DNA from: Deferrisoma camini S3R1
GTDB lineage: Bacteria; Desulfobacterota; Deferrisomatia; Deferrisomatales; Deferrisomataceae
Direction: 5' to 3'
Length of the DNA stretch: 64,000 nt
Assembly: GCF_000526155.1 (NCBI RefSeq)
Contig: NZ_JAFN01000001.1
Span: forward strand, 2,877,014-2,941,013
The notes under the pieces were generated by a model. It searched no databases. It was not told the origin of the DNA and was given only the letters and a program-made list of their open reading frames with translations. Positions 17,050 through 40,170 of the stretch are shown piece after piece. The translations under genes were made by a program, and so were the position numbers. How positions within the stretch are numbered: the stretch's first letter is position 1; every line of letters starts with the position of its first letter.

Positions 17050-17278
17050 TAGCGTTTCCTAAATCTCGTAGTACTCCAGGGGGTGGGGCTGGGGGCCCCT
17101 CCTTCGCTGAACGGCCTCGCAGGGGCCGCCTCGGCGCGGTCCGCTGCGGCGCGTGAGAGCACGCGCCGCGGCCGCTCCCCTGGCGCCGGGCGGCCCAGGC
17201 TGCTCGGCCGTCGCGCTTCGTCGGAGCCCCCAGCCCCACCGAAGCAATCCGCATACGTTTTCGCGAAACGGAACGCTA
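17050..17278 (+). repeat. GC-rich palindromic element, copy A (229 bp)
   Basis: Ends are near-inverted (TAGCGTTTCC at 17050-17059 and GGAACGCTA at 17270-17278). Outer arms pair over about 34 bases (GGTGGGGCTGGGGGC on the left with GCCCCCAGCCCCACC on the right). The centre has a perfect 9-bp hairpin, GCGGCGCGT-GAGAGC-ACGCGCCGC (17146-17169). There is no coding capacity. Very similar copies lie at 31282, 32418 and 40026, all in the same orientation. Confidence 0.85.
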
Positions 17279-39759: not shown

Positions 39760-39789
39760 GACCGGGGCCTTCGGGCCCCGGTCTTTTTT
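39760..39789 (+). terminator. Strong intrinsic terminator after oah
   Basis: A perfect 10-bp stem GACCGGGGCC/GGCCCCGGTC with a TTCG tetraloop is followed by six T. It closes the bam operon. Confidence 0.92.
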
Positions 39790-39900
39790 GGGGAACACTC
39801 CTCCGGGGGGCGCGGATTCCCACGCAGAGGGATTGCGCCAAATGCCACAGCCCTCCGCGCCCCCAAAAGCCAAACATCCTGATTCCAACAGGTTGAAAGA

Positions 39901-39916
39901 TGGCACGGCGATTGCT
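39901..39916 (+). promoter_or_regulatory. Sigma-54 (RpoN) promoter without a downstream ORF
   Basis: TGGCACG-GCGA-TTGCT, with GG at 39902-39903 and GC at 39914-39915 separated by exactly 10 bases, close to the consensus. It lies after the oah terminator and about 80 bases before another terminator, with no coding frame between them. Confidence 0.75.
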
Positions 39917-39926
39917 TTCCATCTGC

Positions 39927-40023
39927 GGCAACGAACGGCCCCACACCCCACACGGACCGTTCGCCGAGCCTCCTATCGCGAGGCCTCTTCCCCCAGCCCC
40001 CGTTCCCCCGGGGGCTTCTTTTT
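39927..40023 (+). ncRNA. Candidate sigma-54-dependent small RNA (about 97 nt)
   Basis: Starts about 12 bases after the -12 GC of the sigma-54 promoter and ends in a terminator T-run. Predicted structure: hairpin 1 CGAACGG/CCGTTCG (39932-39938 with 39957-39963) with an 18-base C/A-rich loop (CCCCACACCCCACA), hairpin 2 GCCTC/GAGGC (39968-39972 with 39980-39984), and the terminator. A CCTCCT stretch (39969-39974) is complementary to ribosome-binding sites. No homologue is recognised; the call rests on promoter, terminator and lack of an ORF. Confidence 0.55.
39995..40023 (+). terminator. Intrinsic terminator of the candidate small RNA
   Basis: A 7-bp stem AGCCCCC/GGGGGCT with an 8-base loop is followed by TCTTTTT. 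The palindromic element copy D begins three bases later. Confidence 0.75.
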
Positions 40024-40025
40024 GT

Positions 40026-40170
40026 CTAGTGTCATGGTTCGCAAGTTCGTGCATTCCCGAGGGGGTGGGGCTGGGGGCCCCTCCTTCGCTGAATGGCCTC
40101 GCAGGGGCCGTCGCGCTTCGTCGGAGCCCCCAGCCCCACCGCCGGAATGGATATACTTTTTTGTGGAAAT
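40026..40170 (+). repeat. GC-rich palindromic element, copy D (internally deleted, about 145 bp)
   Basis: The left flank is identical to copy B (CTAGTGTCATGGTTCGCAAG), and the outer arms are intact. About 85 bases of the centre, including the GCGGCGCGT hairpin, are missing at GGGGCC/GTCGCG. The right end (GGATATACTTTTTTGTGGAA) matches B with small changes. Confidence 0.8.

Follow-up and report, generated by a model that had tools for sequence, protein, structure and literature searches.

A conserved small RNA with a predicted sigma-54 promoter in Deferrisoma camini and its order, and a candidate orphan NtrC-family regulator

INTRODUCTION

The window analyzed here is a stretch of 64,000 nucleotides from the genome of Deferrisoma camini S3R1, and it contains a region of bam genes that includes oah (bamA). 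A first-pass annotation, made from the letters of this stretch, had placed a candidate small RNA behind these genes, with a sigma-54 promoter, two hairpins and a terminator, and had supposed, from the sigma factor shared with the bam genes, that the RNA adjusts translation under the condition in which these genes are made. The locus therefore raises two questions, namely whether such an RNA gene is real and, if so, which genes and which regulator it belongs with.

RNAs of this kind are known from other bacteria. In Vibrio, the NtrC-family response regulator LuxO activates the sigma-54-dependent, trans-acting Qrr RNAs and is subject to autoregulation, while GlmY/GlmZ, CrcZ, NrsZ and Pxr are further sigma-54-dependent RNAs that act in trans. 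Four enhancer-binding proteins (EBPs) of Desulfovibrio vulgaris, DVU0679, DVU0653, DVU1419 and DVU2359, have non-coding RNA targets with sigma-54 promoters (PMC4641369; Dv_sRNA2 in PMC3333781). Our searches found no described small RNA in the order of the present organism, probably Deferrisomatales.

RESULTS

A perfect -24/-12 promoter precedes a short terminated unit

The promoter box TGGCACGGCGATTGCT occupies positions 39901 to 39916 of the forward strand, with GG at 39902-39903 and GC at 39914-39915 separated by ten bases, which makes it a perfect -24/-12 (sigma-54) element. The pattern TGGCAYGN4TTGCW has five matches in the 4,236,551-bp genome, compared with two for the reversed control pattern, and a perfect match lies upstream of the core, 48 to 97 nt 5' of its GAGGC, in all 11 homologues described below. 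That the promoter is a good one, as first proposed, is thus borne out by its perfect consensus, its rarity (one of five genome-wide) and its retention in 11 of 11 homologues. Another perfect box (L185, G000:C1:1969227; G000 is the genome of the window) precedes a gene with an lpxC-like start (MSETYQTTVKRSVHLKGVALHTGETV), identified by eye, and it suggests that lipid A synthesis is under sigma-54 control if this gene is lpxC.

The position of the -12 element places the predicted RNA start near 39927, and the terminator sets its end, giving a predicted forward-strand RNA of about 98 nt (about 39927 to 40024). Its 5' domain consists of hairpin 1 (39927 to 39965), and the length and sequence of this domain vary among families; the C/A-rich loop noted in the first-pass annotation is present, but its conservation is limited to the organism's own family. 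The 3' part is a conserved 58-nt core (39966 to 40023), captured by the covariance models R1 and R2, in which folding and alignment place hairpin 2, GCCUC-loop-GAGGC, at 39968 to 39984. The hairpin is followed by the linker CUCUUCCCCC (39985 to 39994), which is invariant by identity, mostly unpaired in centroid folds and proposed as the pairing seed, and then by an intrinsic terminator, AGCCCCCG-loop-CGGGGGCU plus a U tract (39995 to 40023), recognized from sequence and folding. All these elements lie on the forward strand.

When folded from the predicted start, the 98-nt RNA reached -39.0 kcal/mol, compared with -26.9 for shuffled sequences (z -3.79, with 0 of 200 shuffles as stable), which supports the two hairpins and the terminator, whereas the 123-nt interval originally delimited, promoter included, gave a fold z of only -2.0. 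The absence of an open reading frame holds as well, as neither ATG nor GTG occurs anywhere in the predicted RNA. Farther upstream, at 39760 to 39789 on the forward strand, the sequence GACCGGGGCC TTCG GGCCCCGGTC TTTTTT forms a Rho-independent terminator of the oah (bamA) transcript, so that the RNA gene is a unit separate from the bam operon. This terminator and the upstream palindrome described below (39834 to 39849) had both been missed.

Directly past the RNA terminator lies an inverted repeat with 21-nt arms (GGGGGTGGGGCTGGGGGCCCC..., 40061 to 40143). Its 23-nt left part is present in three exact copies in the window (the others at 17085 and 32451), where none is expected, indicating that the repeat is probably a REP-like dispersed element. 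Between GGGGCTGGGGG of the repeat and CCCCCAGCCCC of the RNA there is complementarity, which may reflect composition only.

Promoter and core are retained across the order

A DNA search of 39 relatives gave clear matches in the genus (96%) and the family (84%), and matches to the core only in three genomes of other families. Model R1, built on the 58-nt core, was run over 12 genomes of the order, and this covariance search in related genomes, the check that the first-pass annotation had put forward, yielded a single strong match in each of 11; in G007, the sole exception, no copy was detected. Model R2, rebuilt from these 11 matches and searched over 395 genomes of the phylum, recovered the same 11 genomes with E values of 1e-15 to 1e-23. 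The other 16 matches, all at 7e-8 or weaker and all outside the order, had no -24/-12 box upstream; they are terminators or coding sequence and were rejected as homologues. The first-pass annotation had staked its claim of a sigma-54-dependent small RNA on conservation in relatives, and promoter and core are indeed retained together in 11 of the 12 genomes. That the small RNA is real and sigma-54-dependent is, judged by this conservation, strongly supported.

Among eight divergent members aligned at the box, mean pairwise identity was 0.22 to 0.30 upstream, rose to 0.44 to 0.51 at -70 to -51, and reached 0.78 at the box; it dropped between the upstream block and the box, and again after the box through the variable 5' domain. 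With alignment at the core, mean pairwise identity over GAGGCCUCUUCCCC was 0.92, compared with a background of 0.22 to 0.30. The profile thus shows three kept blocks, namely the promoter, a site upstream of it and the core. The linker (C/U)UCUUCCCC is the invariant unpaired element of the core, being unpaired in the centroid structures, whereas the hairpin loop and the terminator loop vary. Only one covarying pair was found within the core; as the core is almost invariant, covariation is uninformative, and the case for the structure comes from sequence and from the energy of folding.

The linker as a proposed pairing element

Its invariance and mostly unpaired state make the linker the expected position of a pairing seed. 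The first-pass annotation had looked for pairing with ribosome-binding sites in the CCTCCT of hairpin 2. This motif is confined to the window's genus and is replaced by CCTCCA in G003, CCTCGC in G004 and GCTCGC in family f4, so pairing with ribosome-binding sites loses its original basis but is plausible through the conserved linker. The seed complement GGGGAAGAG was not enriched over the control before start codons (15 occurrences in the window's genome vs 49 for the control), and no linker duplex stood out when 13 window genes were tested at their ribosome-binding sites, the best, with the bzdQ-like gene, falling in the top 5.7% of the background. Target prediction at the bam ribosome-binding sites, one of the checks put forward in the first-pass annotation, gave linker pairing no better than background. 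Hfq is present in 10 of the 12 order genomes.

An upstream palindrome points to an orphan response regulator

The palindrome TGCGCCAAATGCCACA (39834 to 39849), a putative upstream activating site, lies 67 bp upstream of the box and is conserved. In 10 of the 11 promoters, a palindrome of the type TGSGNCAWWTNNCNCA, with TG at its start and CA at its end, begins 67 or 68 bp ahead of the box, a position reached by chance in 0.25% to 0.6% of shuffles per genome; the remaining promoter, that of G005, has a variant, TGCGCCATATCGCGCG, displaced upstream by 10 bp, about one helical turn. The other -24/-12 box loci that were fetched had no such palindrome at this position. Searched across the order as palindrome plus box at fixed spacing, the combination recovered eight RNA promoters and two other promoters, while the reversed control gave zero.

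Searched alone, the palindrome has exactly two matches in the window's genome, one at the RNA promoter and one at G000:C1:1816859-1816874, distant from the RNA and 55 bp upstream of a gene (G000:C1:1816914-1818305) for a 463-aa response regulator. The protein carries a receiver domain (PF00072), a sigma-54 AAA+ domain (PF00158) and a Fis-type HTH (PF02954), which identify it as an NtrC-family response regulator; its central motif is GAFTDA instead of GAFTGA. In six other genomes, palindrome sites precede orthologues of this regulator whose identity to it is 69% to 96% and whose HTH hardly varies, so that the regulator gene was seen in seven genomes. All seven regulator genes examined have TG(C/G)GTAAWATGNCNCA over the -10 of a TTGACW-N18-TAAWAT promoter. 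Since the palindrome overlaps the -10 of this sigma-70 promoter, the regulator probably represses itself. The f4 genomes have the TGGG form, not TGCG, at the RNA site and the regulator site alike (G006 is mixed), as expected if a single protein reads both. No histidine kinase was recognized next to the regulator in the stretches read, for which reason we call it an orphan.

The surroundings of the regulator gene differ among genomes. In G009 and G010 (L279, G009:C40; L278, G010:C61), genes for multihaem cytochromes and a long ORF resembling a secreted protein lie a few kb past it, a possible electron-transfer cluster. The 5' untranslated region of the regulator is about 260 to 280 bp longer in G001 and G002 (L277, L283) than in G000, G005, G006, G009 and G010, as if by an insertion between promoter and gene.

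Across the order, the palindrome alone has 31 distinct sites, comprising nine at RNA promoters, seven at regulator promoters, two at a cytochrome gene pair and 13 others. As these 13 are close in number to the nine matches of the control pattern, they were not counted as regulon members. A site in G003 (G003:C86, L264/L282) lies within a gene-like stretch with no regulator orthologue alongside and was treated as chance.

The two cytochrome sites, in G004:C62 (L242/L271) and G007:C48 (L250/L272), fall between divergent genes for a multihaem cytochrome and a CarboxypepD_reg secreted protein. In G004, -24/-12-like boxes point toward both genes, and in G007 there is one such box. Both genomes encode nearby an NtrC-family response regulator with GAFTGA, and a histidine kinase was recognized in G007; this different response regulator, lying beside similar sites, might be the protein that binds them. 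At L234 (G008:C82:12626), a palindrome-like site and TGGTACGTTATTTGCT, spaced as in the RNA promoters, stand upstream of a PilZ-domain gene, which is followed by a UbiX-like flavoprotein gene. Together, the cytochrome/CarboxypepD_reg and PilZ sites hint weakly at the cell exterior or at electron transfer.

Gene neighborhood and alternative explanations

The genes around the RNA change from genus to genus. They are oah and mqnA in the window's genus, prfC in G003, smpB and a CoA-binding protein gene in G004, a zincin-like peptidase gene and mqnA in G005, GAPDH in G006, multihaem cytochrome and acyl-CoA carboxylase genes in G008, and an MBL hydrolase gene in G009, G010 and G011, accompanied in G011 by bzdQ-like activase genes. 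The proposal that the RNA is a riboregulator tuning the aromatic-degradation genes under a shared sigma factor draws on its position 180 bp past oah in three species of the genus, on its place after the activase genes in G011, and on two -24/-12-like boxes inside the bam region. One of these (TTGGCACGCCCCTTGC, 18719) falls close to where a BcrAD-type activase gene pair begins, the second gene of which is of the bzdQ type, and the other (TTGGCATATGGATTGCA, 23825) lies 135 bp before a bamB-like oxidoreductase gene. Against it stand the unstable neighborhood, the ordinary duplexes with bam ribosome-binding sites, and the absence of any RNA copy from the flank examined around the oah of L022, which is 85% identical. 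Moreover, sigma-54 specificity is set by the enhancer site, and the RNA-type palindrome is absent from both bam boxes. A specific tie of the RNA to the bam genes is thus not supported, and we consider this reading, including the idea that RNA and bam genes act together, quite unlikely. A 5' leader or attenuator would likewise take the form of a hairpin plus a terminator, but at all eight representative loci annotated the next downstream gene is convergent, on the opposite strand and facing the terminator. This arrangement largely refutes a leader, which we regard as very improbable, and indicates a stand-alone, trans-acting RNA.

A protein-sequestering RNA, such as a sponge for CsrA or Hfq, would act by binding protein instead of by pairing, and its binding site would also appear as a short invariant motif. 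The whole RNA, however, contains a single GGA, with none in the conserved core, and lacks repeated motifs, so a CsrA sponge was rejected; an unpaired C/U-rich linker before the terminator is instead the form of pairing RNAs such as MmgR (PMC7143759). Sequestration in general appears improbable to us, if slightly less so than a bam riboregulator. C-rich terminators abound in these genomes and account for the weak matches outside the order, so that a consensus-like box might in principle have fallen near an unrelated terminator by chance. Yet box, palindrome and core are kept jointly in 11 genomes spanning four families, with background identity between the blocks, which leaves a chance cluster a negligible prospect. 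The reading that we prefer, at a probability of roughly 0.8, is that of a trans-acting sigma-54 RNA, apparently switched on by the orphan NtrC-family regulator and with no support for a specific tie to bam.

DISCUSSION

As far as sequence can show, conservation establishes the predicted promoter and the core of the RNA, the putative enhancer site and the regulator operator, and the standing of the RNA as a transcription unit of its own. From the same data we infer transcription in vivo, binding by the regulator, autorepression, pairing by the seed and use of Hfq. The phosphorylated regulator would bind the palindrome, which lies some 87 bp ahead of the predicted start, and would activate sigma-54 polymerase so that the RNA is made; bound to the palindrome over its own -10, it would limit its own synthesis. 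The RNA would begin with a hairpin domain that varies and end in a conserved core of hairpin, unpaired (C/U)UCUUCCCC(C) linker and terminator. Probable partners of the linker are GGGGAAG(A/G)-like, purine-rich stretches at ribosome-binding sites; pairing there, most likely assisted by Hfq, would lower the translation of several mRNAs. The simplest circuit that we infer is therefore LuxO/Qrr-like, in which a self-repressing regulator and sigma-54 would drive an RNA that acts on ribosome-binding sites.

LuxO/Qrr is the closest system by logic, but neither the RNA nor the regulator is recognized as a member. No Rfam model, Qrr models included, matched within the window at its gathering score, and the regulator scored 374 bits against the LuxO model (NCBIfam NF041946), whose cut-off is 800. 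The present regulator gene, moreover, is not beside the RNA, and there is no evidence of quorum sensing. GlmY/GlmZ, CrcZ, NrsZ and Pxr are alike in promoter class and trans role, whereas structure and taxa differ and there is no Rfam match at the gathering score. Below threshold, only suhB/MmgR (RF00519) overlapped the core sensibly; its 18.3 bits are far below the gathering score of 41, so by that test the RNA is not a member of RF00519.

The MmgR (alpha-r8 'suhB') RNA of Sinorhizobium meliloti is 77 nt long and Hfq-dependent, RpoD and RpoN promoters are listed for it, and NtrC induces it (PMC7143759). It shares the order of a hairpin, a C/U-rich unpaired anti-ribosome-binding-site stretch and a terminator; the linker sequence and the phylum differ, and in place of NtrC an orphan response regulator is linked here. 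The Desulfovibrio vulgaris EBP/RNA pairs are the nearest taxonomic precedent found, likened here by their description, and at DVU0679 and DVU0653 the RNA adjoins the regulator gene, unlike the RNA here. With its conserved box, conserved enhancer position and short, terminated, non-coding unit, the RNA has the sequence attributes expected of sigma-54/EBP-dependent trans-acting small RNAs. We thus describe it as a predicted new family of a known kind, not in Rfam, with a regulator proposed from shared operators.

The family adds a testable, sequence-derived circuit hypothesis that names regulator, operator, promoter and seed. The shared palindrome, by leading to a candidate regulator, offers a way toward the signal and takes the place of the earlier guess that RNA and bam genes belong together. 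Should the RNA prove to be the main output of this regulator, the system would be a clean case of two-component signaling through RNA. More tentatively, at somewhat less than even odds, there may be an order-wide two-part switch. An autoregulated orphan regulator would then have essentially one direct output in the window's genome, the RNA, and in some lineages the regulator or a same-site relative would also drive the multihaem cytochrome/surface-protein pair or the PilZ gene. If the two-part switch holds, RNA would be almost the sole carrier of a two-component signal, and if the cytochrome/surface-protein or PilZ outputs hold, the RNA would be placed in electron transfer at the cell exterior.
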